Shown here: positions 13,777 through 62,296 of the stretch, one piece after another
Layout of the letters: each line of letters starts with the position of its first letter
Numbering within the stretch: the stretch's first letter is position 1
Assembly (NCBI GenBank): GCA_023374045.1
Contig: CM041777.1
Coordinates: 464,657,827 to 464,721,826 of the forward strand
Direction: 5' to 3'
Length of the DNA: 64,000 nucleotides
DNA from: Limonium bicolor
Lineage: Eukaryota; Streptophyta; Magnoliopsida; Caryophyllales; Plumbaginaceae
Notes under the pieces: model-generated
Seen by the model: only the letters and a program-made list of their open reading frames with translations
Databases searched by the model: none
What the model was told of the DNA's origin: nothing
Translations under genes and position numbers: made by a program

Positions 13777-13790
13777 ACAAGTTCATCTAC

Positions 13791-27726: not shown

Positions 27727-32717
<4,991 letters not shown>

Positions 32718-36582: not shown

Positions 36583-36705
36583 CTGAAGTTATGAATTATC
36601 GGTATCAACAAAACTGAACACATACTTGAAGGTAAAACTCTTATTTCATTCATCCAACTGTATTATACAAGGTTACACACTTAGCTACTGCTATTACATC
36701 AATAC
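36583..36705 (-). other. E3 intron 5 candidate (about 123 bp)
   Basis: Donor CAGACA|GTATTG lies at the AlkB stop (F-R-Q-Y-stop). The acceptor is CATAACTTCAG|G, or a nearby CTAG 5 bases on, which would keep the frame. E4 has the same donor GTATT at F-R-K-Y-stop. Confidence 0.5.
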
Positions 36706-37436
36706 TGTCTGAAAGTCAAGTTTAAACGGCCGGGTCGGATGTGGGTATCGTTCACTAGGGTAGGTGGTGCGGTATTGAGCTTAATGCTCTTAATACCATG
36801 ATATACAAGTCTCGACTCTCCACCAAATACCAATACATCCCCAGACTTGAGGATGATCTGCTTGCTAGATCCATCCTCTTCTGGTCTCCATAGATAAACT
36901 CAGCATCATCGCCGATGGAGAATGACACAACCGGTATTCCTCTGGTGATGGACTCGGTCGTCTCATCACGGTCCTGGTGCATTCCAAGCTTTCCTCCCTG
37001 CTCATAGTAGTTGATGATGCAAACGTCAGGTGTCATGTCGGGTAATGGATAAGTCTCACAGTCTTGAGCAATATCCATTGCGTTTCTCACCAAGGTAAGG
37101 AAACTCTCAGGTATCTAGGTATAGATACGTCACCTACCATCCTCACCTCTCGATAAACCCTAGCTTGTGGATCCCAATCTTTCCCTAAGCACATCATGTG
37201 CAGTTTCATTCTAGAACCACTATTAAATACAGGGGTATAAAAACCTCCTATGCCCTTACCCAAAGCTCTACACTCATTCACTATGGTGATTTGCTCATCT
37301 AGGGTTAGGAACTCTCTGAGAAGTATCATGCCCGGTCTGACTACATGACACAACTCACTAGGGTACTCCCGTCTTTCTTCCACGGGTCTAGGTGATCTCT
37401 GTCTTGTAAGTGTGGGATAGCAGATGTCGAAATCTC
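36699..37436 (-). pseudogene. E3 AlkB-like Fe(II)/2-oxoglutarate dioxygenase domain
   Basis: Reads from 37436 as G-D-F-D-I-C-Y-P, then [27 protein letters not shown] and, after a shift near 37090, N-Y-Y, iron motif H-Q-D-R-D-E, V-S-F-S-I-G-D-D-A-E-F. After a second shift near 36870 come V-Y-H-G-I and the closing R-L-N-L-T-F-R. All catalytic and 2OG-binding positions of the AlkB family are present. The two frameshifts are single-base, so they may be recent or assembly errors. It is flanked by gag zinc knuckles on one side and protease on the other. Confidence 0.92.
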
Positions 37437-38006: not shown

Positions 38007-38011
38007 CTTAG
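38007..38011. other. Target-site duplication of E4 (CTTAG), left
   Basis: CTTAG precedes the E4 end TGTAACACCCC and is repeated at 52231-52235 after the other end. Confidence 0.95.
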
Positions 38012-41000
38012 TGTAACACCCCAACCGCTAATCCCATGCTTACCGTCTAATCGTCCTATTAATTCTACGAGTTCGCAGCGGAATTATTACATACTTACTA
38101 CGGGGGTGAAACAATGCCGCTAACCGCCCATACGGCTAGCTAGGCTACTAATACTTACAGTCACGGTCTGATGAACATAACGTACCGAGCTACTAGATAC
38201 TTACCAAAATAACGTATATCAAATACTTACATCCTGGATCACCGAGTATTAAAGTACATTCATTTGCAACCTTTCAAGCTTACCAAAAGAATGAGTTTCT
38301 AAAGCTACTCATCTATACCCCAATCCAATACTCCCATTATCCAAAAAGGTGTACCCCATGGTACACCGGCTAATCAAAACTGTAGCCCTGTACTACTTAG
38401 TACACCCATCATAAATCCATTGTTTACATTCCAAAAAGCAGATAAAAGAAGTGAGACTCGATCTTCACATCTTCATCAATCTCGAGTACCTGCGTGTAGT
38501 AAAAATGGTGCCCCAAGGGGCTCAGCAAACGCTGCATATGGACTCCGCATATACCGCGTGCTAGCTAGGGCACGCCGACTATTTGACGTCCACTAAACAT
38601 GCCATTCATTATTCATACATACATGCTCTTCATACAATATACATGCTATACAATTCAGTACACAATCAAGGCAACATTACAAGTACACATCTTACTTACC
38701 TTCACAAGGTTAGCCAAATTATGCATCCGGGTTAATCGGAATGCTTTACTCTTTTACTCATTACTTACTTCTTCTTACTTACGATTACTACTTTCAATTA
38801 CTTTACTTACTCATTCTTACTTACTTACTTATACTCAAGTCAAGTCGTCGGGACCTCCGGCCTTGGGGACTACACCGTCCCACATCCGGGATTTACTTGA
38901 CTCACTAATCCGGGATGCTACCCACTTAAGGGATTTGGGCCGCGGACCAGTTTAAGAGTCAGGAATTGGAGCCAACCTCTCGTGACTCCGCATCCTCACG
39001 CGTGGCCGAAACTATATCGGACTTCTACTCATTCCAATTTAATTACCATTTTAAGTTAGGATGGTTAGCTTGCTAGGAACAAGTTAGAAGTCCAAACACA
39101 AGAATTAATCGGTCACAGTGCAATACAACATACATACCCACATTCTATTCATCCAAACATTTCATGAAGTATACAAACTAAGAATTTAAGAAAATATACA
39201 ACATCATAACACTACATATTCACAAGTATGCATATTAACTCCGATTCGTGCATTTATCTTACTTGGTGATCAATTAGCACACAACACACAAATCAGAGTA
39301 ACCAGATAGCACCCGGGGCATGAGGAATCCATACGTTCACCGTTGTACGTACTTCCAAACGTCCTTCCGGTGTCACAAATCAAATCCTATTATATACATA
39401 CAATTAAATGATTAATCTAACTATCATTGCTTAACTCACACCTACTATGTCCTTATACTTCTTACACTTACACTTTACTTACTCATTTTCATTACCTAAT
39501 TTTACTTTCTTACTTAGCTTTGGCATGCTTTCATACATGTACATATATATATATATATGTATGTATATACATATATATAGTATATTATTATTTAATTTAA
39601 ATAAATTTTTTTTTATTGACCCGACCGACCCTCCCTGGGTCGGACCCATGGGTCGGTCGGGTGCAGAGACTTCGATTACAGACTTTTCAAGTTCGACCGA
39701 CCCAGCCAGGGTCGGTCCATTGGGTCGGTCCGTTGCAGAAGATATCCTACTCACAATTTCTTCTCGACCGACCCAGGCAGGGTCGGTCCCCTGGGTCGGT
39801 CGGATGCAGAAACATTTCCGACCAAAGTTTCCCACTCGACCGACCCAGGCAGGGTCGGCCCACTGGGTCGGTCGGATGCAGAAGCTCCCGAGGTTACAGA
39901 TTTTTGGGTCGACCGACCCTGCTAGGGTCGGCCCTAGGGTCGGTCCAGCCCAGTACTTATTTTTAATTGCTCCTTTTGAACTCCAAATCCTTCTCAATTC
40001 ACATCCAATCTTTTCCTAATCATTTTCCCAAGTTTCCTACATGCTTAGGCACCCTAAAACACTCCTTAACTCATCTACTAACTCATCACCCTTTTCTATA
40101 TCCCAATTCACCCTTTGTCTCCTACATTTTCATTTCAGCACTCATATTATATCCTTCCTTAGACACTTTTGCTACAGATTTTGATACTAACACTCCCCTT
40201 CTACAACTCCCTCTTCTAATGTCATTTCTAACACCTCTAATACATTAGAATCCATTATCTATCTCTCTCAACTTACCCTCTATTATTTAAATCAAAATCT
40301 GTTACACACTCACCTTAGTCACCTAGTTTAATTCTCTAAGTGTTCTAATCCTAGGCAAATTTTGCCATAGTCTCCCCTATATTTTGTACTCTCACCACAT
40401 GTTCTAGTTCACATCTTCAACACTCATTTCACCTGTTTTCAACAATCAAAATACACAAGCTCCCATTTACAACACCCATACTAAACAACACTAAAAACAC
40501 TACAAAATTCCTGCACTCAAGATACCATTCCCAATCTGTTTTAAATGAGTTTTACCCATCTTTTAAAGCTTCCAAAATACTTATATTCTCCTACACATTA
40601 CACTACTAATACATTACCATTTTTCAATACCAAATTCATTATTATTATTAAATCTGTTACATATGAAATTACAAGACTACACAAAGGTGAACATTCCTTA
40701 CCTTGCTTTACTTCTAGATTTTCTTTCTTCTTCTTTCTCCTTCCTTCTCCCTCTACCGGTTTTGGTATTCAACAAATCTAACATTATCACCCATATATAC
40801 ACACACATTCAATACCAAAACTACTCTTAATATTATTTAAGCTTTCAATGTAGATTTCTAGGGTTTAGAATCCATATTACCTCTCAAGAGTGCAAATGAA
40901 GCTTGGAGTGGTTCAAGAACAAGGTTTCCAACTCCTTCAACAAGCCAAAATCGGCTAGAACACAAGAGACCAAACAAGGGTTTAGTCTAGATTTTCGTTT

Positions 41001-41840
41001 TGCCCACAAGAGCTAGAAAAAGATGGAGTTTTCAAAATATTTTTACCTTAGAAGAACAAGGAGAAGGAGGGCCTTCTAATGGTGGTGTTGAAACTCCAAA
41101 TGGGATATACCCTCAAAATCGAAAATGGTTGTTTTTGGATTTTGGAAAGATGAAAATGTAGCTCTTGAGGAGAGGATTACAATGGTGTAATTTTTATAAT
41201 TTTTGGAAGAGTGTGGAGAGAGTTACAAGGGAGAGAAGATGGAGTTTGTGTTGTTTTCTTGTTTCACCATTGAAATCGTGAGGTAGGGGAAGAAGAGGAA
41301 AAGAGAGAGTGAGGGGGCTGCTGCTTCACGTGAGGAAAGGAGGGAATGGGTAGGAGAGAGAAAAATATTAGAGTGGGGGTTACTTTATTGTTTTTGTCTT
41401 TTGTAAATAGAGAGGAGTGTGTGAGAGAGAGTGAGAGGGGGAGTCCCCATCGGTCACACACACACATATATTACTTTTGCTTTTTATTTTCAAAGTGGAC
41501 ACATAACTTTTGTTTATTTATACTTCTACCCCACAATTTCCCGTTTTTGACAGTTTTTACTAATTTCTCGTTTTCTTGATTTTATTGGTCCTACAGCCTC
41601 ACTAATATTTATTAATGAATATTTAGTTGCCTAAAACTGTTACGAGTCTATTTGACCCGCCTAAAGACACGTTTTCCCGGTTACCTCGAGAAACGCGCTT
41701 TAAGGTTCGGTGATGTTTTTAAACCGTTTTAAAGGTCCTTTTCTTCGGGATTTGTTCCCTCATAATTATTTACACTTAATTAAGCTTCTAAATTACTTAT
41801 TAGCCTAATTAATCACTATTTTTAATTACGGGGTATTTCA
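38012..41840 (-). repeat. E4 3' LTR (3.83 kb)
   Basis: Minus strand from TGAAATACCCCG (41840) to GGGGTGTTACA (38012). Contains the palindrome array at 39623-39950, the GCTGAGCCCCTTGGGG block near 38510 and a CATACGTTCACCG block near 39330. An (AT)n run lies at 39540-39585. Open frames such as 39447-40019 are by-products of the array. Confidence 0.97.
39623..39950 (-). repeat. E4 3' LTR: five-unit GACCGACCC/GGGTCGGTC palindrome array
   Basis: GACCGACC starts at 39623, 39695, 39766, 39838 and 39911, period 71-73 bp. Each unit has GACCGACCC, a 5-7 base loop, GGGTCGG, then a second GGGTCGGTCGG and a short spacer beginning with TGCAGA. Same unit number and period as in the E1 LTR. Confidence 0.95.
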
Positions 41841-41856
41841 ATCTACCCCCCTTAAG
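41841..41856 (-). promoter_or_regulatory. E4 3' polypurine tract
   Basis: Minus strand CTTAAGGGGGGTAGAT abuts the LTR start. Confidence 0.85.
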
Positions 41857-42221
41857 AAACTTTGCCCTCAAAGTTGCTCAAGGTTAATAGTTTTATAATT
41901 CTACTCATTATGCACACCAATAGTCATAATGTGTCTTACTACACCTATGAGGTGTTTACTTCATTCCACATTGCAAGCATACACATTTCAACATCATACG
42001 CAATTCACATACACAATGCATCATTTCCATTCATACCGTACCGCAATACAAAATACATCATTACCATCCACAATACACATTACACCAATACACCATACAT
42101 TACACATACACATCATTCATTACACATTACACATACATACACATCCATACTAAATTCACTCGCACTACATGTGCCATACAAAATGCAATGCTTACCCCGA
42201 AGCAATGCTAAAGCAAAGGGT
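41857..42221 (-). other. E4 noncoding segment between polypurine tracts
   Basis: 365 bp without a gene; its + strand is rich in ACACATTACA-type short repeats near 42080-42150. Confidence 0.6.
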
Positions 42222-42240
42222 TCTACCCCCCTTAAAAGGG
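42222..42240 (-). promoter_or_regulatory. E4 internal polypurine-tract-like site
   Basis: Minus strand CCCTTTTAAGGGGGGTAGAA, 36 bp past the integrase stop, matching the sites in E1 and E3. Confidence 0.7.
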
Positions 42241-42276
42241 GTACGACCCGTACCCGTATACTAAATACTAGACTCT

Positions 42277-45200
42277 CTAGTCTATGAATAACTGCGGGTA
42301 TTTAGCCTTCATGGCATCTTCCAACTCCCATGTCGCTTCTTCGACATCATGGTTAGACCATAGGACCTTCACCATTCGTATAGACTTATGGCGAGTGTCT
42401 CTGGTCTTCCTATCAAGGATTCTCACTGGGGTTTCGACATATCTCATGTTTGGCTCAATGGATAGTCTCTCGGGCTCCAACACATGAGAAGGATCAGCCA
42501 TATACTTCTTGAGTTGTGACACATGAAATACATCATGGACACGTCCCAAGTCCTCAGGTAGTGCTAACCTGTAGGCTACTGAACCAACTCTTTCGGTGAT
42601 AGTGTACGGCCCTACAAATTTTGGGCTTAGCTTGCCCTTCTGACCAAATCTGAAGACACCCTTCATAGGTGAAACTCGCAAGAACACTTGGTCGCCCACG
42701 GCGAACTCGAGGTCGCGTCGTCTCACATCCGCATAGGATTTCTGTCTATCTTGGGCTGCCTTCATGTTAGCTCGGATTTGTTGCACTTCGGCTTGTACTT
42801 GCTCAAGGTACTCCGGTCCTATTATGACCGCTTCACTTGACTCATCCCAACACAAGGGTGTACGGCAAGGTCTACCGTATAGAGCTTGGAAAGGCGACAT
42901 CTTAATCGAGGCGTGATAACTATTATTATACGAGAACTCGATAAGATGGAGCTTATCTAACCAACTCCCCTGAAAGTCCAAGGCACATGCCCGAAGCATG
43001 TCCTCCAGTGTCTGGATGGTCCTCTCTGTCTGACCGTCGGTCTGAGGATGGAAGGCGGTACTCAACTTCAGTTCTGTACCCAACGCTTCCCTTGTAGCTC
43101 TCCAGTATCTCGAAAGAAATCTGGTATCGCGGTCAGATACTATGGTCTTAGGGACTCCGTGGTGTCTGATAATCTCCTTATCAAAAAGCTCAGCTAGCTT
43201 TACTACCTTCCAGGTGTCCTTCATCAGTATGAATCTGGCAACCTTGGTAAGGCGATCTACTACAACCCAGATCATGTTGAGTCCTCCCCTAGCAGGTGGG
43301 AGTCCTACAACAAAATCCATGGAGATATCATGAAATTTCCACTCCGGAATTGGCATTGATTGTACCATTCCGCCCGGTCTACGGTGTTCAAATTTTACCT
43401 TCTGGCATGTCAAGCATCTCAATACGAATTCTGTCACATCTGACTTCATTCCAGACCACCAGAAGTACCTCTTCATGTCTTTGTACATCTTGGAGGCTCC
43501 CGGATGGACTGATAATGTAGAACTATGTGACTCTCGCAGGATGCGATCCCTTAGCTCAGCATTGCTTCGGGGGACGCATAGCCTGCCATTCAACCGAATC
43601 AACCCATCTTCATGAAGCTTAAAATCATACTTTTTCTTCTCAAATGTACCATTCTCGATCTTGTGTCTGATTTCTGTTAGGTAAGGGTCGCTCCACTGAG
43701 CGTCTCGCACCTCGTCAACCAAGCTAGAAGAAGCGAGTAGCGAATGGAGCGAGTGTGCTCGACGACTCAGGGCGTCGGCTACAACATTTGCCTTCCCTTC
43801 CTTATACTGTAAGTTGATGTCGTAGTCTGAGAGAAACTCCATCCACCTTCTCTGTCTCAAGTTGAGTTCTTTCTGAGTGAATACATACTGTAAGCTCTTA
43901 TGATCGGAGTAGATGGTGATGCTTACCCCATAGAGATAGTGTCGCCATATCTTCAAGGCGAAGACAATGGCTCCTAACTCTAAGTCGTGAGTCGGGTAAT
44001 TCTCCTCATGTTTCTTCAGCTGGCGGGAGGCATAAGCAACAACCTTGCCATGCTGCATGAGTACGCATCCCATTCCCTTGCCTGATGCATCACAGTATAC
44101 CTCAAATCCCTCTGTGCCCTCTGGAAGAGTAAGGATGGGCGCTGAGGTCAATGAGTCTTTCAATTTCTGAAATGATAATTCGCACTCGTCTGTCCATACA
44201 AACGGTGCATCTTTCTTCATCAATGTAGTCATGGGCTTGGCGACTTTCGAGAAGTCCCTTACAAATCTCCGGTAGTAACCGGCTAGACCAAGAAAGCTCC
44301 TAATGTCGGTAACCGTCTTGGGTCTAGGCCATGATCGTACAGCTTCTACCTTAGAAGGGTCAACTGAGATACCTGCGCTCGAGATGACATGTCCAAGGAA
44401 TGATACCTGATCAAGCCAAAACTCGCATTTGGAGAACTTCGCATAAAGCTGGTTCTCGCGCAGTGTCTCAAGCACTTTCCTCAAGTGAATTTCATGTTCC
44501 TCTGGTGATTTAGAATATACAAGGATGTCGTCGATGAAGACCACAACCGAAGTGTCCAACTGCTCACTGAATAGTCGATTCATGAGGTCCATGAATTTTG
44601 CCGGTGCGTTTGACAAACCGAATGGCATCACTGTGAATTCATAGTGGCCATATCTGGTACGGAATGCCGTTTTCTCAATGTCTTGCTCTTTGATTGCAAT
44701 CTGATGATACCCTGAACGGAGGTCGATCTTGGAGAAGACTGAGGCTCCCTTCAGCTGGTCGAACAGGTCGTCGATGCGTGGTAGTGGGTATTTGTTCTTG
44801 ACTGTGACCGCATTCAGCTCGCGGTAGTCAATGCAAAGGCGGAGGCTACCGTCCTTCTTCTTCACGAAGAGGACCGGTGCTCCCCAGGGTGATACGCTCG
44901 GGCGTATAAACCCTTTGTCAAGTAAGTCTTTCAACTGCTCCTTTAGTTCGGTCATTTCAGCAGGTGCCATGCGGTACGGTGCCCTAGCAATGGGACCGGT
45001 ACCTGGCAATAGATCAATTTCGAATTCCACTGCTCTCGGTGGTGGCATGCCGGGTAGCTCCTTAGGGAATACATCGGGATACTCGGATACAATAGGTACT
45101 TCGTCGCTGAACTCTGGATCTCTCTCCAGGTCTTGCACATAACACAGATACACTTCTTGGCCCTTTCTGAGCTCCCGGTACATAGCCATGGCAGATATAA

Positions 45201-45656
45201 GGGTGGTCGAAGGCTCTCTCGGTCTTTGGCGGTAAGATACTGTAACCCCAGAAGGACTCTTGAGCAGCAAACGGTGCTCGGCGCAGAGGATTCTACCCTT
45301 GTGCCGCTCCAACCAATTCATCCCAATGATTACGTCGAATCCCAATCCATTGAATTCGATGAAGGAAAGGGGAAACGATTCGCCTTTGATTTGGATTGTG
45401 GCTGATTGATAGTATTTGGTGCACTTTACTCGCTCCTTCGATGAGAGAGTAACCATGAAGTTCGGTAGCTCATCCGCATCTAGCTTCAACCTCTTCACGA
45501 AGGATGGTGATACGAAAGTGTGAGAGGCGCCGGAGTCGAATAATACATTGGCATCAATGCCATTTACTGGGAAGGTTCCCGTTAGAATGGTGCCGCTTCT
45601 GCCGGCTTGTGCTTCGGTGAGGATGCTCAGGTTACCTTCGGTACCGAGCCCACAAC
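42277..45656 (-). CDS. pol: E4 Pol: protease-RT-RNase H-integrase-chromodomain
   Basis: An unbroken frame (open from 45744, 1155 codons) with all domains of a Ty3/gypsy chromovirus. Residues counted from the first ATG at 45744: protease Asp70-Ser-Gly; RT with F403-I-D-D406; RNase H Asp552, Glu589, Asp614, Asp657; integrase zinc finger His740, His747, Cys777, Cys780; catalytic Asp810, Asp871 and Glu907 (35 residues between the last two); GPY module at 1045-1047; chromodomain at about 1121-1155 with W1129-S-N-H and A-T-W-E. The first ATG is probably not the true start: residues 1-30 fall in intron 5 or in spacer before the linker [10 protein letters not shown]. No intron 6 is present; T-G-T-F reads through. 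This is the only intact pol in the window and is likely functional in cis or trans. Confidence 0.96.
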
Positions 45657-45803
45657 CTATTGGATTCACAATTGGATAAGTATTGATGGTGGACACAAGT
45701 GGAATTAAATCAACACTGCTCTTTATTGATAAACCAACCATCATACATGTCGTGTCTCTAATACACGTTACTAATGGATTACATGATACTAGGAATTTAA
45801 TAC
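45657..45803 (-). other. E4 intron 5 candidate (about 147 bp)
   Basis: Donor AGAAA|GTATTAAA at the AlkB end, acceptor ATCCAATAG|G. Splicing here would remove the AlkB stop but not put AlkB in frame with Pol. An alternative acceptor further on (CTGAG|C) would. Evidence is therefore mixed. Confidence 0.45.
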
Positions 45804-46536
45804 TTTCTAAAGGTAAGGTTCAGGCGTCCTGGTTTCATGTGTGTGGCATTGATTATTGCCGGCGGTGCCGTATTCAACTTGATCTTGTTGATCCCGTGAT
45901 ACAGCATCCGTGAGTTTCCACCCATGATGAGGACATCTCCTGATCTCAATACCAGTTTCTGTGCGAGGTCCACACGCTTCTGCTCGCTATACAGGAATAT
46001 GGCGTCATCACCAATGGACCAAGACACTACGGGCACTCCTTGTTCAAGAGATTCCGCTGTCTCGTCCTTGTCTTGGTGTAACCCAAGTCGTCCTTCTTTT
46101 TCATAGAAGTTGACGATACAAAGGTCCGCTTCAAGTGCGGGGACTGGTTCAGATTCACATTGTTGTGCAAGTTCAACTGCTTGAGTGATGAGGGTCTGAA
46201 ACTCTGGTGGTATTGTCGGTGGCGTCGCTCCATCTTGTGTTCGTGTCTCCTGGTATGCCTTGGTATAAGGATTCCAGTCCTTTCCCAAGCACATCATCTT
46301 CAGCTTCATCTTCGCTCCACCGGGGAATTCGGGTGTGTAAAATCCACCTTGACCCATTCCTAGCTCGTTGCATCGTCGGATGATTGAGATTTGCGCTTCG
46401 GGTGTCAGGTATCCCTTTAATAAGATCATCCCTGGGCGGATGACCTGACACTGTTTGTTGGTGTAGTCGTGGTTGGTGATGTCGATCTCTTCTTGGTTCA
46501 GGTTAACCGGTATCGGATAACAGATACTAAAGCTTC
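45797..46536 (-). CDS. E4 AlkB-like Fe(II)/2-oxoglutarate dioxygenase domain
   Basis: The only unbroken AlkB copy. The frame is open through an ATG at 46555, but that ATG lies in the end of intron 4; the exon starts at G-S-F-S-I-C-Y-P. Numbering from that ATG (252 residues): N149-F-Y151 (2OG contacts), His160-Q-Asp162 (iron), W-S-I-G-D-D-A-I-F at 179-187, His220 in L-Y-H-G-I (iron), Arg244 and Arg250 in R-L-N-L-T-F-R (2OG salt bridge). The spacings are those of AlkB proteins. The likely substrate is alkylated nucleic acid, perhaps the element's own RNA or cDNA; this is inferred. It is expected as part of a Gag-AlkB protein. The stop comes two residues after L-T-F-R. Confidence 0.95.
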
Positions 46537-46695
46537 CTAAGGTTACAAATTTCATCTACGGTGAGTACTAATTCCATTCTCGACTGCTCCATTTCGTGCT
46601 TAATATACACTTCATTGATTTACTCATGCATTCACTCATACAATTACTCTACTACTAGACATGCTATTGCAAGGATTAAAGGTTTAGGTGATTAC
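46537..46695 (-). other. E4 intron 4 (159 bp), gag to AlkB
   Basis: Donor GGCCAAG|GTAATCAC, acceptor GTAACCTTAG|GAAG. Phase 1, joining S-G-Q to G-S-F-S-I-C-Y-P in frame. Confidence 0.82.
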
Positions 46696-47033
46696 CTTGG
46701 CCGGATTTCGAACCGGGCCCATCGCGGTCAATCACATGGAGACAGGCTGCCTCGAGGTGCGCCTCTCTGAGGGCCCCGGGATCCCTGTCCCTGAGGTGCC
46801 TGCTGGGCCGGTGCATCGCCAGATGCCACCTCCTTGCCCTCTCTCTGCTTGTAGTTCTGGAAGGTACCCTTCGGCTTTCCACTCTCCGGGCACTTTGCTG
46901 TGTGTCCCAGCTTCTGGCAGTTATAGCATTTGATCTCCCTCCCGTAGCAGTCCTTACCAGGATGGTCCTGGTTGCACTTTCTGCACACATAGGTGCGGCC
47001 GTCGGAGAAGGTTTGGCGGCTCCGAGCTAGAAC
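46696..47033 (-). pseudogene. E4 gag exon 4: two zinc knuckles
   Basis: Knuckle 1 C-R-K-C-N-Q-D-H-P-G-K-D-C and knuckle 2 C-Y-N-C-Q-K-L-G-H-T-A-K-C are in one open frame (46988-46728). A Gln/Gly/Arg-rich tail follows. The frame stops at a TGA near 46730; the neighbouring frame carries D-G-P-G-S-K-S-G-Q to intron 4. Entry from exon 3 is also off by one. Two single-base indels explain both, and given the youth of E4 they may be assembly errors. Confidence 0.85.
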
Positions 47034-47116
47034 CTGAGGTTAGAGGGTTAGCACATGTGTGCGTGGGTATACTAGAAATGATACTTATACGAATACAAAT
47101 TGGAAGTAGAATTTAC
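47034..47116 (-). other. E4 intron 3 (83 bp)
   Basis: Donor CCTAAGG|GTAAATT, acceptor CTAACCTCAG|GTT. Same place and nearly the same length as in E2 (82) and E3 (84). Confidence 0.82.
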
Positions 47117-47390
47117 CCTTAGGAGGGTGTGATCTCAGTGGCTTAGCTGCCACCGGTGCAGAATAACCAAGCTGAAGGATCTCAGCTGGTTTGCCCTGCT
47201 CAGCATGGGCACTGCTCTCACTTGGGGACTTCTTCTGAGAAAAGAAGTTCCCTTTCTTCTTCTTCCAGCTTTTACCCTGGTTCTGCTCCTCAGTGCTGGT
47301 ATTTTTGTTATTGGCCTTGCGCTTCAGCGCGGTTTCTTCATCCCTCAGTTGGCAAGTGATCTCAACGCGAGAAGCCGCGTGATAACACTC
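47117..47390 (-). pseudogene. E4 gag fused exon 2-3
   Basis: Reads E-C-Y-H-A-A-S-R-V-E, a Lys-rich S-W-K-K-K-K-G-N-F-F segment and ends L-R-S-H-P-P-K before intron 3. In E2 and E3 an intron divides this exon exactly between W-K and K-K-K; E4 has none. The frame is open throughout. Confidence 0.85.
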
Positions 47391-47507
47391 CTGAAATTTC
47401 AGGTATTAGCCGGGATTCTTATTTAAAAAGAAAGGATAGGGAAAGATTCAAAGAATTCAAGGAACTTAAGGAATTGACATGATACTAAGGGTTAACCGTT
47501 TATTTAC
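47391..47507 (-). other. E4 intron 1 (117 bp)
   Basis: Donor CTTCAG|GTAAATAA, acceptor CTGAAATTTCAG|GAG. Phase 0, joining S-L-Q to E-C-Y-H-A-A, as in E2 and E3. Confidence 0.85.
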
Positions 47508-48163
47508 CTGAAGGGAGGTAATCTGGTGTAGCCCATACCGTACCGAAGGCGATGGCTCAGACCGCCATAGAAGCGATCGACCACACCTGGCCGGTGTATC
47601 CAAGATCAGGGAGGAGACGGAGAATGGAGGTGAAAGTCCTATAGTACTCATCCACAGACATCTTGTCTGTCATCTTTAGGCGTCAAGTTCAAGCCTCTTC
47701 TTGGTCTTGACATGTTCCGGATAGTACTTAGATCGGAGAAGGGATGCAAAGAATCCCAGTCGAAGGTGGGGTCGCTTACATGCTCGTGCTTCACCAATTT
47801 CCACCAATCCATGGCCGCATCCTTCAAGTAGTAGGCGCTACTCTGACTCGAACTCCAGCAGAGCTTCGAGGGTCTCAAACGCCGTCTCCATTTCGGAGAT
47901 GTAGGCTTCTAGCTTAGCCGGATCACTCTCGCCCCTAAAGCAAGGAGGGCGGAGTTCCGCTACAGCTTTTACCCAGTTAGCTTCTCTGGGTGGAGGGGGA
48001 GGGATTGGCCCCGTTTGAGTTTGGTTCTGCTGAGTTGTTGTACAGCTTGGATTACTTGGGGTAGCATCTGAGCTACCGTGGCGGCGACGATCTCAGCTAT
48101 CGTCTGCGCGCCGGTTCCATCTGAGGCTTCGCCTCTAGGTCGGCCTCGGCCTCGTCCTGACAT
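47508..48163 (-). pseudogene. E4 gag exon 1 (capsid), frameshifted
   Basis: Starts at ATG 48163 with M-S-G-R-G-R-G-R-P-R-G, about 210 bp inside the primer site. The capsid core shows A-N-W-V-K-A, then Y-Y-L-K-D-A-A-M-D-W-W-K (47840-47800), but in changing frames with several single-base indels (near 48040, 47830, 47700). The E3 gag exon 1 is open over the same region. Broken gag beside intact pol in a young element is notable. Confidence 0.8.
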
Positions 48164-48373
48164 CTGAATGTTTAACAGTTACATTAGGCTTTGCAAGATA
48201 GGACTCAAAGGTCTTGGAATTTAAGCAAGGTATCGTTCATAAGAACGTTAAGGGTATCCGTCGTTAACAACGGTAGTTCCTAGTTAGGTTTCTAAGTATC
48301 CGTCTTAAGACGGTTGAAATCCTAACTCGGTAATCTCCTATGCTCGGTACTATGGACATCAGAGCGTAACTAC

Positions 48374-48385
48374 GCTCTGATACCA
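48374..48385 (-). promoter_or_regulatory. E4 primer-binding site (initiator-Met tRNA)
   Basis: Minus strand TGGTATCAGAGC, 5 bases from the 5' LTR end. The following GAGCGTAGTTACGCTC is an inverted repeat, as in E2 and E3. 48164-48373 is the untranslated leader. Confidence 0.92.
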
Positions 48386-48390
48386 CTTTT

Positions 48391-51300
48391 TGTAACACCC
48401 CAACCGCTAATCCCATGCTTACCGTCTAATCGTCCTATTATTCTACGAGTTCGCAGCGGAATTATTACATACTTACTACGGCGGGTGAAACAATGCCGCT
48501 AACCGCCCATACGGCTAGCTAGGCTACTAATACTTACAGTCACGGTCTGATGAACATAACGTACCGAGCTACTAGATTACTTACCAAAATAACGTATATC
48601 AAATACTTACATCCTGGATCACCGAGTATTTAAAGTACATTCATTTGCAACCTTTCAAGCTTACCAAAAGAATGAGTTTCTAAAGCTACTCATCTATACC
48701 CCAATCCAATACTCCCATTATCCAAAAAGGTGTACCCCATGGTACACCGGCTAATCAAAACTGTAGCCCTGTACTACTTAGTACACCCATCATAAATCCA
48801 TTGTTTACATTCCAAAACCAGATAAAAGAAGTGAGACTCGATCTTCACATCTTCATCAATCTCGAGTACCTGCGTGTAGTAAAAATGGTGCCCCAAGGGG
48901 CTCAGCAAACGCTGCATATGGACTCCGCATATACCGCGTGCTAGCTAGGGCACGCCGACTATTTGACGTCCACTAAACATGCCATTCATTATTCATACAT
49001 ACATGCTCTTCATACAATATACATGCTATACAATTCAGTACACAATCAAGGCAACATTACAAGTACACATCTTACTTACCTTCACAAGGTTAGCCAAATT
49101 ATGCATCCGGGTTAATCGGAATGCTTTACTCTTTTACTCATTACTTACTTCTTCTTACTTACGATTACTTACTTTCAATTACTTTACTTACTCATTCTTA
49201 CTTACTTACTTATACTCAAGTCAAGTCGTCGGGACCTCCGGCCTTGGGGACTACACCGTCCCACATCCGGGATTTACTTGACTCACTAATCCGGGATGCT
49301 ACCCACTTAAGGGATTTGGGCCGCGGACCAGTTTAAGAGTCAGGAATTGGAGCCAACCTCTCGTGACTCCGCATCCTCACGCGTGGCCGAAACTATATCG
49401 GACTTCTACTCATTCCAATTTAATTACCATTTTAAGTTAGGATGGTTAGCTTGCTAGGAACAAGTTAGAAGTCCAAACACAAGAATTAATCGGTCACAGT
49501 GCAATACAACATACATACCCACATTCATATTCATCCAAACATTTCATGAAGTATACAAACTAAGAATTTAAGAAAATATACAACCATACAACACTACATA
49601 TTCACAAGTATGCATATTAACTCCGATTCGTGCATTTATCTTACTTGGTGATCAATTAGCACACAACACACAAATCAGAGTAACCAAGATAGCACCCGGG
49701 GCATGAGGAATCCATACCGTTCACCGTTGTACGTACTTCCAAACGTCCTTCCGGTGTCACAAATCAAATCCTATTATATACATACAATTAAATGATTAAT
49801 CTAACTATCATTGCTTAACTCACACCTACTATGTCCTTATACTTCTTACACTTACACTTTACTTACTCATTTTTCATTACCTAAGTTTTACTTTCTTACT
49901 TAGCTTTGGCATGCTTTCATACATGTACATATATATATATATATGTATGTATATATACATTATATATGTATATATATTATTTAATTTAAATAATTCTTTT
50001 TTTTTATTGACCCGACCGACCCTCCCTGGGTCGGACCCATGGGTCGGTCGGGTGCAGAGACTTCGATTACAGACTTTTCAAGTTCGACCGACCCAGCCAG
50101 GGTCGGTCCATTGGGTCGGTCCGTTGCAGAAGATATCCTACTCACAATTTCTTCTCGACCGACCCAGGCAGGGTCGGTCCCCTGGGTCGGTCGGATGCAG
50201 AAACATTTCCGACCAAAGTTTCCCACTCGACCGACCCAGGCAGGGTCGGCCCACTGGGTCGGTCGGATGCAGAAGCTCCCGAGGTTACAGATTTTTGGGT
50301 CGACCGACCCTGCTAGGGTCGGCCCTAGGGTCGGTCCAGCCCAGTACTTATTTTTAATTGCTCCTTTTGAACTCCAAATCCTTCTCAATTCACATCCAAT
50401 CTTTTCCTAATCATTTTCCCAAGTTTCCTACATGCTTAGGCACCCTAAAACACTCCTTAACTCATCTACTAACTCATCACCCTTTTCTATATCCCAATTC
50501 ACCCTTTGTCTCCTACATTTTCATTTCAGCACTCATATTATATCCTTCCTTAGTCACTTTTGCTACAGATTTTGATACTAACACTCCCCTTCTACAACTC
50601 CCTCTTCTAATGTCATTTCTAACACCTCTAATACATTAGAATCCATTATCTATCTCTCTCAACTTACCCTCTATTTATTTAAATCAAAATCTGTTACACA
50701 CTCACCTTAGTCACCTAGTTTAATTCTCTAAGTGTTCTAATCCTAGGCAAATTTTGCCATAGTCTCCCCTATATTTTGTACTCTCACCACATGTTCTAGT
50801 TCACATCTTCAACACTCATTTCACCTGTTTTCAACAATCAAAATACACAAGCTCCCATTTACAACACCCATACTAAACAACACTAAAACACTACAAAATT
50901 CCTGCACTCAAGATACCATTCCCAATCTGTTTTAAATGAGTTTTACCCATCTTTTAAAGCTTCCAAAATACTTATATTCTCCTACACATTACACTACTAA
51001 TACATTACCATTTTTCAATACCAATTTTCATTATTAAGAATCTGTTACATATGAAATTACAAGACTACACAAAGGTGAACATTCCTTACCTTGCTTTACT
51101 TCTAGATTTTCTTTCTTCTTCTTTCTCCTTCCTTCTCCCTCTACCGGTTTTGGTATTCAACAAATCTAACATTATCACCCATATATACACACACATTCAA
51201 TACCAAAACTACTCTTAATATTATTTAAGCTTTCAATGTAGATTTCTAGGGTTTAGAATCCATATTACCTCTCAAGAGTGCAAATGAAGCTTGGAGTGGT

Positions 51301-52230
51301 TCAAGAACAAGGTTTCCAACTCCTTCAACAAGCCAAAATCGGCTAGAACACAAGAGACCAAACAAGGGTTTAGTCTAGATTTTCGTTTTGCCCACAAGAG
51401 CTAGAAAAAGATGGAGTTTTCAAAATATTTTTACCTTAGAAGAACAAGGAGAAGGAGGGCCTTCTAATGGTGGTGTTGAAACTCCAAATGGGATATACCC
51501 TCAAAATCGAAAATGGTTGTTTTTGGATTTTGGAAAGATGAAAATGTAGCTCTTGAGGAGAGGATTACAATGGTGTAATTTTTATAATTTTTGGAAGAGT
51601 GTGGAGAGAGTTACAAGGGAGAGAAGATGGAGTTTGTGTTGTTTTCTTGTTTCACCATTGAAATCGTGAGGTAGGGGAAGAAGAGGAAAAGAGAGAGTGA
51701 GAGGGCTGCTGCTTCACGTGAGGAAAGGAGGGAATGGGTAGGAGAGAGAAAAATATTAGAGTGGGGGTTACTTTATTGTTTTTGTCTTTTGTAAATAGAG
51801 AGGAGTGTGTGAGAGAGAGTGAGAGGGGAGTCCCCATCGGTCACACACACACACATATATTACTTTTGCTTTTTATTTTCTAAGTGGACACATAACTTTT
51901 GTTTATTTATACTTCTACCCCACAATTTCCCGTTTTTGACAGTTTTTACTAATTTCTCGTTTTCTTGATTTTATTGGTCCTACAGCCTCACTGATATTTA
52001 TTAATGAATATTTAGTTGCCTAAAACTGTTACGAGTCTATTTGACCCGCCTAAAGACACGTTTTCCCGGTTACCTCGAAGAACGCGCTTTAAGGTTCGGT
52101 AATGTTTTTAAACCGTTTTAAAGGTCCGTTTTCTTCGGGATTTGTTCCCTCATAATTATTTACACTTAATTAAGCTTCTAAATTACTTATTAGCCTAATT
52201 AATCACTATTTTTAATTACGGGGTATTTCA
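48391..52230 (-). repeat. E4 5' LTR (3.84 kb)
   Basis: Near-identical to 38012-41840, same termini. Differences include single-base indels near 48440 and 48480 and a different (AT)n run at 49930-49980. The palindrome array recurs at about 50014-50340. Confidence 0.97.
50014..50340 (-). repeat. E4 5' LTR: five-unit palindrome array
   Basis: Second copy of the array at 39623-39950, unchanged in unit number and spacing. Confidence 0.95.
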
Positions 52231-52235
52231 CTTAG
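52231..52235. other. Target-site duplication of E4 (CTTAG), right
   Basis: Matches 38007-38011 and rejoins the E3 gag exon 3 sequence. Confidence 0.95.
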
Positions 52236-52577: not shown

Positions 52578-52655
52578 CTGTAATACATCAATGAGTTCCC
52601 CGAACTTGTAATAAATCAAACTGAGTTATAGGTATAACTGTCAATTAATTTTTAC
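52578..52655 (-). other. E3 intron 1 (78 bp)
   Basis: Donor GTCCAG|GTAAAAAT, acceptor TGTATTACAG|GAG. Phase 0. Confidence 0.87.
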
Positions 52656-53487
52656 CTGGACCGTAGGGTACAAGGTAGCACCCATGGCGGCCTTAATAGC
52701 ATATCTCAACCCGCCTCTAAATTTCTCCACCTTCACAGCATCAGAATAAACAACTCCTGGGACGAAGTCCAAGAGCCCAATAAACAAGGAGTAGTACTGA
52801 TCTACTGTCATACTACCCTGCCTCAGGGACTCAAACTCCTCCCTCTTCCTCTGCTTCAAATGAGCAGGATAGTACTTCTCTCTCAACAATTCTACAAAAC
52901 CAGTCCATCCAAAACCCTCTATAGCAAGATAATGTGCCTTCACGGACCTCCACCACGTACTGGCAGCGTCCTTCAGATGAAAGGCTGCTATGCTAACTCG
53001 GTGCTCAGCAGGCACATGAATGGCATCAAACGCCTTCTCGTGCTCAACAATGTATCTCTCGAGGACAGTGGGGTCAGCAACACCATCATAGGTAGGTACT
53101 CGCGTGTCAGCTACGCTCTTCAGCCAATTCGGCTCTCTAGGTGCGGGTACGGGTGGGACTACCGGTGGTGCTCCAATGTGGATACCTCCCATCTGGGCTA
53201 GCTGAGCGAAGACGGCAGCTACCGTCTCAGCCACGCCCACGGCTGGGCCCCCCGGAGGACCTGCTCCAGGCCCGCCGCCTCTTCCACCACCTCCTCTACC
53301 TGCTGATCGCCTTCCAGAAGACATCTGAAGAATTCAGAACCAAAGTCAGCTCTTAGTATAAATACTGTACTTTTCCCTACCGTAACTTAACTCTAATTAT
53401 TTACAACTATCTTCCTGGTACCGGTGTGTGAAAAACCTAAGCTCACGGTACTTAAACTACTATCTCTTGTAATCAGAGCGGTACTCC

Positions 53488-53503: not shown

Positions 53504-56500
53504 TGTAACACCCCTACTAATCCTGCTTCTAAAAATAATATAATCGCAGCGGTAAATAACAGATTGTCGTTCTAATGGTGTCACAGTTATCACTCACCCA
53601 TACGGGTGATAACGAGTTACCTGATAATCAACATGCGAAACGTATTCCCGCAGTGACCACAAGAGATAGATGGTAGTACTTAAACAATTTAAACAAATCT
53701 AACAACAACCAATTATTACAGACCGTGAGCATCTAAACCAAATACACCTCGGTTAAACAACCCGAGTCCAAAACAACCTGAGTATCACACCGTACCAAGT
53801 CTAAACAAACAGTAATATCACAATAGTCACGCCTCGCTGCAACCCACCAGCTAGTCACCTGCACAAAAATGGTTTGTGGTATGGAATCAGCCCCTGCTGA
53901 GTATGTCATCACATGCCCCGTCATGCCCCCAAAGACCCCTCAATTATTTGGTCGAGAGCATGAGGTTCATTACAGGCAATACCGTTTTAATATTTAAAAT
54001 TGTAAAATAATTAACAGTAACATCCATACAATAAACACAACCATCACCATATATAATATAACCACAAGTATAACCAATGAACAACCAAGCGAAACAACGA
54101 GAACAATAAACAAGTACTAGTTCTCGTCCATGGTGTGGAAACCAATATCGTTCGCCACTGTATAATTCTTAACTGTATTATTTGTTCAGTTATACCTAGT
54201 GACAATGTCTCGTTAAAACGACATGTCTCTAGTTACCCATAGATTATGGCGGGTCACCCACGGCAGTAGCCACTCCAACGGTAGAGTCTCCGACCAACGA
54301 GCCATTCTAGCTCACGGGAAATTTTCTTGATACTTGCGGACCAGTACGCGGACATCCTGGTATCGTTTTTGTGATCACAGCGCGCACCAAGAGCCACATC
54401 CTCTTGGCTTTACTTCCATTCCATTAATTAATTAATTATTCCATCGCATCGCATTACCAAATTTTCCTAACACAGCAGACTAAGGTCATTAGTCCAATCC
54501 GGAGTCTGTAAACTCGGGATCCAGCGTTAGATACGAGAGCGGCGTATAGAAAGGCCAATGCTCCGTATAAAAGTCTCGGATAATATGTATATCTTATTAT
54601 CCTAGTGCTACAATGTTTTTCTGACGATCCTTATATTTCATATAAGATAGCACCATAGCCGCTAGTTCGTTTTATATATATAGGTCCATATATACGAACC
54701 GGTACTGTTAACTCGACAACAGTAATAATAAGCAGCTATAAATATACAATTTATGCATATTGATTATCACATTCAGACAAACAATCTTATCACAGATCAC
54801 ACAGAAGTATGAACTGAGGAAGCCCTCAGAGACAATCAGAGACACATAACAACATACCGTTCACCCTGATGTATTACGGTGGAGTATGAATCAGCGAGAT
54901 CCTATGCTCCTTGTGTAGTCTCTAACAGTCTAAACAATACATAAAGCTACTGATTAGCATACCGTATAACAACACAATTCTACGGTACCCCGTACCGTCA
55001 CTAACACCTCCCGGTTACCCCCTGTTATTCGCTATCAACATTTGTCGGGTTTTAGGTTTAACTCGAGATTGGAAAAGTGTTATATTTCATGCGTAGTTTG
55101 TCTTGTATATTAATATACTTATTGTTGAACTCGTTATCGCATGTGACTTAACTCACCCTTGTATGTCGTATAGTTTATTTCATTATTGCATGTGTGATCC
55201 TTTGTCATGCATTATGCATCTCACTTTAGTATTTATTTTCCTAAGGTTTGTCTCTTTTTTTTTAAATTCAATGTGGTATAATTCATTTGTAAACAATACT
55301 TTGAATGTATAAATTCTTATTATCCCATGTATACTCCTAACATTAGAATTCCACATCTAATGTTTGTAATTCTTTTCCCTTTTATCATATGTCATTTTTC
55401 ATTATGAAAACACATGGTCTTTAAACCATATTATATTTTTCCACCATAACATATATTTATTTATGTGTATGTATTATGGAACTATTCCTTATATGGTAAG
55501 TCTTATAATATATATTCATTCTTTCTAATGAATACCTCTTATATTATAAATGTTATAATCCTTATAACATCAAAACCATATTATAAATTCCATTTAAAAA
55601 TATTAATATTTCCGAACAGCACCTATGTTCTTAAATATTTACAAAACCCACCACTTAGTTAATATAATGTTACATTATTGTTATATAACATATCTTATGA
55701 CATTTAAGTCATTTAAAACAATTATAACCTATAGTTATATTTTGTTTATAAAATACCAAATAGCCCCTTATATTTTCGGTTTCCATTATACACCACTAAA
55801 ATTCTATAAATCACAATTCCATCCCAATTTATAATACATAGTTTTCTAATTCCCTTAAACTATATATTATACATATATCTTTCTAAAACCTTATATATCA
55901 TTTCAAAAATTACCAAACTATACCAAAAGGTTATAAATATTATTCCTAACCTTATACTCCTTTTAAATCTCGGTTTTCACCCCTTTGTTTCCCATTTGTA
56001 ACAATGTTATAAAGTATCTTATATTATACTTATATAACTCATATAAACTCCAAATTTAACCAAATAAATTTCTAAAAATTCCTAATAACCTAAGGTTTGT
56101 ACTAAACTCCATTTAGTACCCCAAGTTTTCGGAAATTACATTATAGCCCCATCTCTTTTAAATCTTTTACAAATTAATACTTATCTTAATATAAGGTAGT
56201 ATTTTAATTTCTTAAATTTTCCAAACTTGGTCAAAGTCTCCTATATAGTCAACTTTGACTTCTAATACCAAATGGGAACCAATTTTTCGGTAATCACTAA
56301 TAATAACCTATACTTTTCTATTTTTACAATTTTGACCCAAAACTTTATAAAATGTTATAATTTTTATTAAATTCATTTAAAAACCCTAAATTGCTCTAAA
56401 TTAAGCCCACGGCTTTCTAATTTCCTAGTAATTACGAATTGGCCCCAATTTTAATTATAAGCATAAATAAAACTAAATAAGCTTATAAACTTAAATTAAA

Positions 56501-56746
56501 ATGGCCTAATGACATGGCCTTATTACAACCTTGAACTTGCAAAATAAATTACACAATAAATGTCTCAAAATATAGCATATATTCTCGGCCTCACTTTGGT
56601 TTAATTATTTTTCCACATAATGTCATAATTTGACCATTATGTTAATTAAATCTCTTAAATGACTAGCTTAATTTATCTTAGCCATTTTTTCCCATTTTTA
56701 GGTCAATATGACCTATATATGTAATTTCACTCTCGGCCATATATAT
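53504..56746 (-). repeat. E3 5' LTR, visible part (3.24 kb)
   Basis: Matches 28074-31290 almost exactly. It is cut at TCGGCCATATATAT by the array that starts at 56747. The remaining 1.4 kb of the LTR should lie beyond the right edge of the window. Confidence 0.93.
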
Positions 56747-58399
56747 TGATAAGTGTCCAAATGAGCATGTTTTATAGGTGTATTTCAATTATAATATTAG
56801 CACTTTTCTTGCTCATTTCTCCACTTCGGTTAGTTTTCCTCTAGTTTATGTTTTATTGTTTATGTTACAAATTTATTGGTTTAACATGAGGAAAACCAAG
56901 CTGGGAATAAAGTAGACGAAGAGATGAACGCATAGACGCAAACGGCTCAGAAAACGGAGTCCAAACGAAGAATCTAGAGCCGGTCAAAGTTGGAAGAAAA
57001 TGGGTCACGACCACACTTGTGACCGCATGGATATCGGGCGGACGCAAGTGCGGACGCAAGAGACGACCGCATGAAAACCAGGCGGACGCTTGGCGGACAG
57101 AGGAACGGAGAAGAGACAGAGACGACCGCATGAAAACCAGGCGGACGTGGGTGAGGTTGCTGAGCGGACGCGAGAGAGGAACAGAGACCGTCCGCGACTA
57201 AAGCGGACGCAGAGGCGGACGCTTGTAAGATCTGAGACGCGAACAGTTTTCTTCTTCGCGCGCCGTCTGCAACTTGCCTTCGCCGACTTCTGCAACTCGT
57301 CCACTCGTCCACTGTCTGCAATTATCCATCTACTCTGCACACGTTCTGTCCCCTGCAATAAATGATCAATCAGTCTGCAAATCTTATCCAGCTTCTTCCA
57401 CCGCCTCAATCCATCACGCGTCTGTTATCTTCATTTTCTCTGTTGCCTCTTCCCTTCTCTATATAAACCCACGAGCCTTCTGCTCAAATACAATCGACCA
57501 CCCATACAATCCATCACCGTACCACTTCACCACCCGTCACACGTTCATCTCATTTCTCTCCTCCCGCCTTCTCCATTTTTATTTCACTTTCCACCATATT
57601 CACCTCTAGTCCTACGTATACAAAATAGCAGAGCGAGCTGGAGTGATTACAGATGATTTCTATTACTCTTGTTTCTGTTTATCTATTTAATATGTTGGGC
57701 TAGAATACGTACGCTCTGGGAATGGTTATTATGAGTTTGTATTAATTATGCAATATTTTTACTGGGTTTATTTAAATACAGTTTGTTACGTTTTAAAGGT
57801 TATCTCGCACCTTTTTAATAAATGTCATGAGTTTATTAAATTGCTTTCCTAAGTCTATTTTGATCAGACCGGTGATAAATAGATAGGTTAATTAAGACGT
57901 AAAACTGGAGGAAACTTGTTATGATTTAATAAGTTAGTATTCAGTTGCAAATGTAATTCCTCAAATACTCCTCTGCCGTTTACAGGCATTTTGCTTGAGT
58001 TTTCATCGGACCTTGCATTACAGGTAAACGAGTTCTTTTGAGTCTATGACTTAGACCTTAAGAAAATAACAGGAACCTTGCCAAATTATTAAACCAGTAG
58101 AGATAGCTTAATTATGCAGATTATAATAACCTGACCCAGAGTTCCATTTAATTTATCTGTCAACTTAGTTTATTTTATCTTTTCTTTTATTTATTTTACA
58201 AGTCAATTAATCCCCCCTCCTGTGACACGCTTAGGTACTATTATATGTATATTAGTCCCACGGTTCGACATCCGGTCGCTTACATTTTCACTATACTACT
58301 ACGACCGGGATTTGTTTGCAGCCCGACGTTTATTTTGAGTTTTTAATTTCTTTTCTTTTATTTTACACCAGTTTAACCACTCACGATATAACGTCTGCA
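56747..58399 (+). repeat. Array LTR 1 (1653 bp)
   Basis: Starts TGATAAGTGTCCAAATGAGC, ends ACGTCTGCA, three bases before the primer site. Contains several copies of GGCGGACG and CATGAAAACCAGGCGGACG at 57010-57225, and a TATA-like CTATATAAAC near 57460. The frames on both strands here are not genes. Confidence 0.88.
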
Positions 58400-58402
58400 A
58401 AA

Positions 58403-58420
58403 TGGCGCCGTTGCCGGGGA
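58403..58420 (+). promoter_or_regulatory. Array unit 1 primer-binding site (tRNA-Asp)
   Basis: TGGCGCCGTTGCCGGGGA, complementary to the 3' end of tRNA-Asp. Confidence 0.9.
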
Positions 58421-58619
58421 CTAGATTTATTCTAGTCCCTAAGCCCCGGATTATTCACTTGTTATATTAGAATATTTTAGTTATATTATTTTTGTTTGTT
58501 GTTTATATTAATTATCTTTTATATTTTGTTTATATTATTATTATGTTTGTTTCTAATTATTTTATTTTCTAATCTGTTCAGTAGTTTTGTTTTATATACA
58601 AAAAAAACAAAAACAAAAA

Positions 58620-59218: not shown

Positions 59219-59433
59219 CAAAGCAGGCGTCTAGCCAAAGACGTTAAAGAAGGGCAGCTTCCCGGGAGGCAACCCGGATGTACTTTTATTTTATTTTGCT
59301 TTTATGCTCTTTTAATTTTCAGGTTCTCTTTAAATTTTGTTTTTGCTAACTTTTAACCCCGTTTGTAGTATGGTTGCTTCTAGTGTCTTATGCAGGTGCA
59401 AAATCATGTCTACACTGCAACCAAGCTACGCTA

Positions 59434-62083: not shown

Positions 62084-62086
62084 AAA

Positions 62087-62104
62087 TGGCGCCGTTGCCG
62101 GGGA
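62087..62104 (+). promoter_or_regulatory. Array unit 2 primer-binding site (tRNA-Asp)
   Basis: Identical to the unit 1 site. Confidence 0.9.
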
Positions 62105-62296
62105 CTAGATTTATTCTAGTCCCTAAGCCCCGGATTATTCACTTGTTATATTAGAATATTTTAGTTATATTATTTTTGTTGTTTATTAATTATCTTTTAT
62201 ATTTTGTTTATATTATTATTATGTTTGTTTCTAATTATTTTATTTTCTAATCTGTTCAGTAGTTTTGTTTTATATACAAAAAAACAAAAACAAAAA

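Follow-up and report, generated by a model that had tools for sequence, protein, structure and literature searches.

What is an AlkB-type dioxygenase frame doing between the gag and pol genes of an LTR retrotransposon? The question was raised by a first-pass annotation of a 64,000-nucleotide stretch of the Limonium bicolor genome (contig CM041777.1; hereafter the window), which marked such a domain at 45797–46536 in what it called an intact element copy, E4. It proposed that the element may repair or demethylate its own RNA or cDNA, with the enzyme packaged as a Gag-AlkB protein.

Element E4 and its AlkB domain

E4 is a Ty3/gypsy LTR retrotransposon, with LTRs, a target-site duplication, a primer-binding site (PBS), a polypurine tract and the order gag, protease, reverse transcriptase (RT), RNase H, integrase. 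Its features are as follows:

38012–52230, minus strand: E4, LTR retrotransposon of 14.2 kb with Ty3/gypsy gene order, inserted within the gag of element E3
48391–52230, minus strand: 5′ LTR, 3840 bp
48374–48385, minus strand: PBS, TGGTATCAGAGC, separated from the 5′ LTR by 5 nt
46729–48161, minus strand: gag with zinc knuckles and several frame changes, traced by matches to the E3 gag and by three-frame translation
46537–46695, minus strand: putative intron d, separating the zinc-knuckle exon from the AlkB exon, 159 nt, GT...TTAG
45797–46536, minus strand: AlkB exon, ALKBH1-type Fe(II)/2-oxoglutarate (2OG) dioxygenase with its own stop codon
45657–45796, minus strand: spacer past the AlkB stop, with the putative pol acceptor AATAG at its end
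42277–45744, minus strand: pol ORF, 1155 aa, with protease, RT, RNase H, integrase and a chromodomain-like end
41841–41853, minus strand: polypurine tract, AAGGGGGGTAGAT, adjoining the 3′ LTR
38012–41840, minus strand: 3′ LTR, 3829 bp

The LTRs have TG...CA ends; indels aside, 10 of 3817 aligned positions are mismatched between them. The 5-bp target-site duplication CTAAG is present on both flanks. Short tandem repeats of ∼72 bp are found in both LTRs (39622–39945 and 50013–50336). We take the PBS to be the complement of the 3′ end of initiator tRNA-Met; a PBS that fits this tRNA is common in elements without AlkB. Within pol, the protease, RT, RNase H and integrase zinc-binding domains score above their Pfam cut-offs. 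The integrase core (rve) reaches 23.3 bits, under its cut-off of 32.6, and the chromodomain (PF00385) 20.2 bits against a cut-off of 25.1, with 17.8–19.5 bits in the pol relatives P0123, P0131 and P0134. The AlkB domain was placed correctly between the gag zinc knuckles and protease-RT: CCHC zinc-knuckle sequence lies on its 5′ side at 46731–47039 (Pfam zf-CCHC, 20.4 bits, just below the 20.8 cut-off) and pol on its 3′ side (45744–42277).

The AlkB ORF runs unbroken for 252 aa on the minus strand (46555–45797). In a profile search, residues 42–250 matched the Pfam domain 2OG-FeII_Oxy_2 (PF13532) over its full length (1–194 of 194) with an E-value of 4e-45 and a score of 154.8 bits, far above the cut-off of 31.2. 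The ligands of iron and 2-oxoglutarate are all present, as N149-x-Y151, H160-x-D162, the distal H220 and R244-x5-R250. In a 42-row alignment made up of E4, four TE-type rows and 37 other rows, every row keeps N149, Y151, H160, D162 and H220, and R244 and R250 belong to the residues conserved in ≥90%. The C-terminus reads LTFRKY, as the L-T-F-R ending noted in the first pass had indicated. These results confirm an AlkB-family Fe(II)/2OG dioxygenase domain, with its ligands kept, in a Ty3/gypsy element. Structure prediction returned a high-confidence model with an AlkB-type double-stranded beta-helix, for which rice ALKBH1 was the top structural match; the predicted fold thus gives no sign of the missing beta-helix that would have spoken against the assignment. 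The limits of the domain needed a small adjustment. While 45797–46536 holds as the span of the exon, 46536 is the first base past a putative intron and the ATG of the ORF, at 46555, is intronic.

Calling E4 intact is accurate for AlkB and pol, where 1407 codons are open in this young element, whereas gag shifts frame several times. Between 47516 and 48157, gag matches that of E3 in alternating frames despite the 10 mismatches in 3817 positions of the LTRs. This suggests either that Gag provided in trans mobilized E4 or that there is a local sequence problem there. Because its gag is broken, the E4 copy itself could not make a Gag-AlkB protein.

Copies, relatives and selective constraint

A tblastn search placed AlkB in three elements of the 64-kb window, in two frames in E1, in three in E3 and whole in E4. 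The further copies and their elements are:

28074–56746, minus strand: E3, the outer element holding E4, with LTRs at 28074–31291 and 53504–56746 that are 98.3% identical
52641–53324, minus strand: start of the E3 gag
36699–37436, minus strand: E3 AlkB exon with two frame changes (PF13532 E-value 1e-16 on one of three pieces)
21838–26800, minus strand: coding region of E1, a decayed third element with gag, AlkB and partial pol; LTRs not identified
24499–25231, minus strand: E1 AlkB exon, interrupted by a single frame change and a single in-frame stop (PF13532 E-value 5.2e-33, longer piece)

A second E3 AlkB piece matched PF13532 below the cut-off (E-value 0.0024), and the E1 pol carries in-frame stops. 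Over aligned codons, amino-acid identity of AlkB is 0.66 between E1 and E3 (239 codons), 0.56 between E1 and E4 (248) and 0.55 between E3 and E4 (241). E4 lies within one base of the border between exon and intron c in the E3 gag (CCTAAG then GGTAAGC; 38007–38011 and 52231–52235). A long (TG)n tract (27702–28232) adjoins the E3 3′ LTR. Elsewhere, the window holds a Ty1/copia-type element at 8934–14109, which has plus-strand gag-pol frames and direct repeats of 302 bp (98%), and a 3.58-kb direct repeat (56747–60325 and 60424–64000; 99.2% identical, 98 bp between) that reaches the window end.

The first-pass annotation had allowed that a host gene might have been transduced only once. This is ruled out by the three copies in the window together with the four TE-type database proteins that group with them. 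In a 32-row tree of pol sequences, E4, E1, two E3 pieces and P0123 form a group with 100/100 support. P0123 and the AlkB protein P0002 probably lie on one contig, since both source contigs are 26561 long. No AlkB domain is listed in any of 120 pol relatives (the best 120 of 7946 scored), and the relatives P0131 and P0134 lack AlkB, with gag, a zinc-knuckle match and pol in a single ORF.

Constraint was estimated by the Nei–Gojobori method for each frame piece, with stop codons excluded. The E1–E3 pair, the only one of three for which AlkB could be computed, gave dN 0.22, dS 2.1 and dN/dS 0.10, a rough ratio because this dS is near saturation, and one that later decay of E1 and E3 would raise; the ratio for pol was 0.06. 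AlkB differences between E1 and E3 at codon positions 1, 2 and 3 number 52, 45 and 126, and a third-position excess is also seen in pol. Synonymous sites are saturated in both pairs that include E4 (pS 0.79–0.82), which hence yield pN/pS only: 0.34 and 0.38 for AlkB, 0.25 and 0.28 for pol. These codon patterns indicate that purifying selection has kept AlkB, under constraint somewhat weaker than that on pol, the ratio being rough. A recent capture of AlkB by this lineage is excluded, because synonymous sites between copies are near or at saturation.

Comparisons with known proteins place the domain nearest to ALKBH1. Its best PDB match is OsALKBH1 of rice (5xeg/5xoi). At E-values up to 1, 22 distinct PDB sequences were matched, comprising one OsALKBH1, 15 AlkB, five ALKBH1 and one unrelated protein; ALKBH5 is absent from these 22. 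The host matches that name a subclass, among the matches listed (best 120 per search), are ALKBH1C, ALKBH1D or abh1. Bacterial AlkB, as in E. coli, is a more distant likeness, with E4 scoring only 111.4 bits on the NCBIfam equivalog against its cut-off of 267. By sequence, the element AlkB thus groups with ALKBH1/AlkB and not with ALKBH5.

A search of 5.8 billion proteins with the E4 AlkB gave 1713 matches, of which the best 120 were used. Within these, three 'ena' proteins and one 'lgn' protein (71, 60, 70 and 63% identity) take the top ranks, above the first named plant protein. A 97-row tree combined four window rows, rice ALKBH1 and E. coli AlkB with the 91 of the 120 that remained after thinning. 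It divides eight TE-type rows plus E. coli AlkB from the 88 others (support 96/100, branch 0.77) and leaves the basal forks among the TE-type rows open. A second tree omitted E. coli AlkB and used 38 hand-picked other rows; its bootstrap had not fully settled. Here six TE-type rows stand on their own side at 100/100. The phylogeny proposed in the first pass thus sets the TE-type rows apart from plant ALKBH1 (rice OsALKBH1, and ALKBH1D in other plants) across a 100/100 branch, but does not single out donor plants: of four donor groupings (grasses, orchids, legumes and all monocots), none was rejected (p-AU 0.30–0.50). A scan of IMG/VR with the E4 AlkB gave five pattern matches, none of which encodes a relative. 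Host ALKBH1 differs also in its long N-terminus, which E4 lacks, Gag exons preceding the domain instead. On these sequence comparisons, we recognize an AlkB-bearing Ty3/gypsy lineage whose domain, located between gag and protease, is most like plant ALKBH1. Its plant-type pol and its host relatives point to a plant origin.

Putative introns and expression of AlkB

The copies of this lineage can be aligned as exons separated by short gaps that resemble introns. In addition to intron d of E4, these are:

Putative gag intron a, minus strand: E1 26118–26197; E3 52655–52578; E4 47507–47391
Putative gag intron b, minus strand: E1 25902–25978; E3 52446–52355; absent from E4
Putative intron c, upstream of the zinc knuckles, minus strand: E1 25693–25774; E4 47116–47027; the E3 copy is split by the E4 insertion
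Putative intron d, at the same place as in E4, minus strand: E1 25358–25232; E3 37566–37437
Putative intron f, at the protease start, minus strand: E1 24209–24284; E3 36506–36435; absent from E4

Exon limits were set by visual inspection, with GT/AG sites and conserved peptides as guides. The number of GT-AG gaps therefore follows from how they were chosen. The contrast in composition does not: GC content is below that of the flanks in 12 of 12 listed gaps (medians 34 vs 55%). For intron c of E4, the second of two close AG sites was used because it preserves the frame. Coding sequence is continuous in E4 where gaps b and f are missing, as expected if introns were lost via spliced RNA or gained in E1 and E3. 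Frame changes surround intron b in E1, and phase agreement across it could not be shown.

Intron d leads directly into the domain. The gap measures 127 nt in E1, 130 nt in E3 and 159 nt in E4, with GT-AG in all three, and every copy of the AlkB domain is preceded by ...TTAG|G. Host homology in E4 begins at that acceptor: the BLASTP alignment with a Phalaenopsis host protein starts from residue 7 and pairs GSFSICYP with GPFDICQP of the host. In the Phalaenopsis host ALKBH1-type protein P0041, a repeated segment with GPFDIC occupies residues ∼90–190, which hints at a host exon border where the TE exon begins. The peptide ahead of the intron d donor is conserved between E1 and E3 (LNSARASGAEVGAQRAI and LNAAGASGAGTSTQRGE) in a phase that matches the AlkB exon, and that of E4 is unlike both.

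At its other end, the exon carries the AlkB stop in all three copies, with a C-terminus that is the native host one. An AG before the pol exon follows 116–140 nt past this stop (116 in E3, 140 in E4). The pol acceptor has phase 1 in E1 and E4 and reads as phase 0 in E3. One donor could thus in principle serve either AlkB or pol, which is the basis of the splicing switch proposed below. An AATAAA lies 65–69 nt past the AlkB stop in E4 (within 45657–45796) and E1 (within 24363–24498) but not in E3; it could be a poly(A) signal for a short Gag-AlkB mRNA, a leftover from a captured 3′ UTR, or a chance product of AT-rich sequence.

How the AlkB frame is entered can be judged from the three copies together. 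An overlap of ∼22 nt between the E4 AlkB ORF and the pol open frame (45797–45819) prompted the idea of a link by translation, with a start at the intronic ATG 46555 and a +1 shift from the end of AlkB into pol. This idea ranked low once E1 and E3 were read, and we regard it as very improbable. The lone E4 ATG stands directly behind a TAG, and neither E1 nor E3 has an ATG from the in-frame TAG to the AlkB domain. The start of host homology at the acceptor, and the native host C-terminus and stop in three copies, likewise weigh against a start within the intron and a shift into pol. Of the routes into the AlkB frame, splicing from an upstream gag exon alone appears consistent with E1, E3 and E4 alike, and our best reading is that splicing would select between Gag-AlkB and Gag-Pol. 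The Gag-AlkB protein proposed in the first pass therefore keeps a candidate splice route, whose exon phases agree in E1 and E3, but frame changes lie between the zinc knuckles and the intron d donor in E1, E3 and E4, and the stretch is open in none of the three.

Relation to known elements and possible function

The first-pass annotation knew of no described Ty3/gypsy lineage with an AlkB domain. One has in fact been reported, the Phalaenopsis 2-ODD Gypsy (Gypsy_Pa_2799), whose enzyme has demonstrated m6A demethylase activity (PMC9289625), where that of E4 is predicted from sequence. Both are Ty3/gypsy elements that encode an AlkB-family dioxygenase with complete cofactor residues and occur in multiple copies (many in Phalaenopsis). 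The Phalaenopsis element is 25.5 kb long with 6.4-kb LTRs, has an RT sister to Ogre within Tat, and combines an ALKBH5-like domain in a separate 565-aa ORF2 with a PBS for tRNA-Arg and gag-pol in one ORF (PMC9289625). In contrast, E4 is 14.2 kb long with 3.8-kb LTRs, its AlkB is ALKBH1-like and forms an exon between zinc knuckles and protease, its PBS is TGGTATCAGAGC, and its gag is split by putative introns and followed by a pol with a sub-threshold chromodomain match. We infer that the two captures were independent, from differing AlkB subfamilies, the Phalaenopsis element being known here by its published description. Of 121 plant assemblies, only two, both of Phalaenopsis, yielded the Phalaenopsis-type domain, and its enzyme was proposed to act outside the particle (PMC9289625).

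Other systems share single features with this lineage. Ogre/EVADE elements, described with a functional intron in a December 2025 review (PMC12786077), likewise use splicing for subgenomic RNAs; the elements of the window differ in having up to five putative introns and an enzyme-bearing cassette exon, whose splicing we propose from sequence. The passages of that review considered here cite just the Phalaenopsis case of AlkB. Plant RNA viruses of the Alpha- and Betaflexiviridae and Closteroviridae (cited in PMC9289625) are also mobile genetic elements with AlkB, but they do so without reverse transcription, and the likeness is drawn by description, not sequence. In the open-access literature on AlkB and retroelements, we found no ALKBH1-type AlkB in a retroelement. 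AlkB in a gypsy element is thus known; what appears new is an ALKBH1-type AlkB in Ty3/gypsy, with a different subfamily, PBS, gene order and size and with putative introns.

What might such an enzyme do? We lean, if only modestly, towards a Ty3/gypsy ALKBH1-like AlkB that is under selection, probably becomes fused to Gag through splicing, and would demethylate the element's own nucleic acids; splicing, Gag fusion, packaging, substrate and benefit are the steps that we infer. Unspliced full-length RNA would be the genome for reverse transcription and also the source of spliced mRNAs. Splicing of the zinc-knuckle donor to the AlkB acceptor would give a Gag-AlkB protein ending at the AlkB stop, while splicing to the farther acceptor would skip the AlkB exon and give Gag-Pol. 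Gag-AlkB would then be incorporated in the virus-like particle, where an ALKBH1/AlkB-type site could oxidise N-methyl groups on the RNA template, the primer tRNA or single-stranded cDNA. The simplest targets would be marks or damage such as m1A and m3C, which block RT, or N6-methyladenine.

Reverse transcription yields single-stranded DNA and RNA-DNA hybrids and uses a tRNA primer. In vitro, the rice enzyme ALKBH1 reportedly removes 6mA from ssDNA. Against a role on this mark, losing ALKBH1 in rice altered total 6mA to a limited extent (PMC10469495). ALKBH1 is also described as an eraser of m1A58 in tRNA, a mark that matters for the stability of tRNA-iMet (PMC7475180). Set beside the nucleic acids of reverse transcription, these substrates would favour demethylation or repair in the particle, with relief of m1A and m3C blocks as the simplest benefit. 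The in-particle repair or demethylation of element RNA or cDNA suggested at the outset is plausible as a prediction. A fuller proposal combines an independent second capture of AlkB, of the ALKBH1 kind and at the nucleocapsid-protease site, with a cassette-exon switch between Gag-AlkB and Gag-Pol and a particle demethylase that clears RT-blocking marks; it is tentative, and we doubt it somewhat more than we credit it.

Several other roles can be weighed against this reading. AlkB might work in the cytosol on host or element mRNA, as a separate protein or a cytosolic Gag fusion, erasing m6A to free the element RNA from repression. The Phalaenopsis enzyme does demethylate m6A in ssRNA in vitro (PMC9289625), and ALKBH9B is reported to free ONSEN RNA from stress granules (PMC12786077). 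We nonetheless consider such a role unlikely, given that the element sequence goes with ALKBH1/AlkB and not ALKBH5 among the 22 PDB sequences, and that the domain sits between zinc knuckles and protease, not in a separate ORF. Within the particle, the main target might be the primer tRNA, with the Gag-borne enzyme stripping m1A58 from tRNA-iMet and so altering annealing or the plus-strand stop. In retroviruses, m1A58 contributes to the termination of plus-strand synthesis, so its removal could harm the element; a PBS that fits initiator tRNA-Met is also common where AlkB is lacking. Even with a suitably placed PBS, 5 nt past the 5′ LTR, and the m1A58 activity of ALKBH1 (PMC7475180), the tRNA as main target seems to us quite improbable. 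That AlkB is a passenger, a captured host exon copied without use, was already disfavoured and deserves hardly any weight: two of the three copies in the window are broken, yet the E1–E3 dN/dS of 0.10 and third-position excess resemble those of pol (0.06), and E4 keeps all catalytic residues.

An enzyme carried by Gag and acting on the element's own nucleic acids would have implications beyond this locus. If a second AlkB subfamily has entered another Ty3/gypsy lineage, methylation of retroelement nucleic acids is likely a general point of conflict for plants and their transposons, beyond one orchid genus. A Gag-linked ALKBH1-type enzyme, if true, points to marks on template, primer or cDNA inside the particle and not to m6A in mRNA. 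Finally, if an LTR element so rich in introns does carry an enzyme in a cassette exon, it would have an unusual means of control over the balance of Gag fusions.
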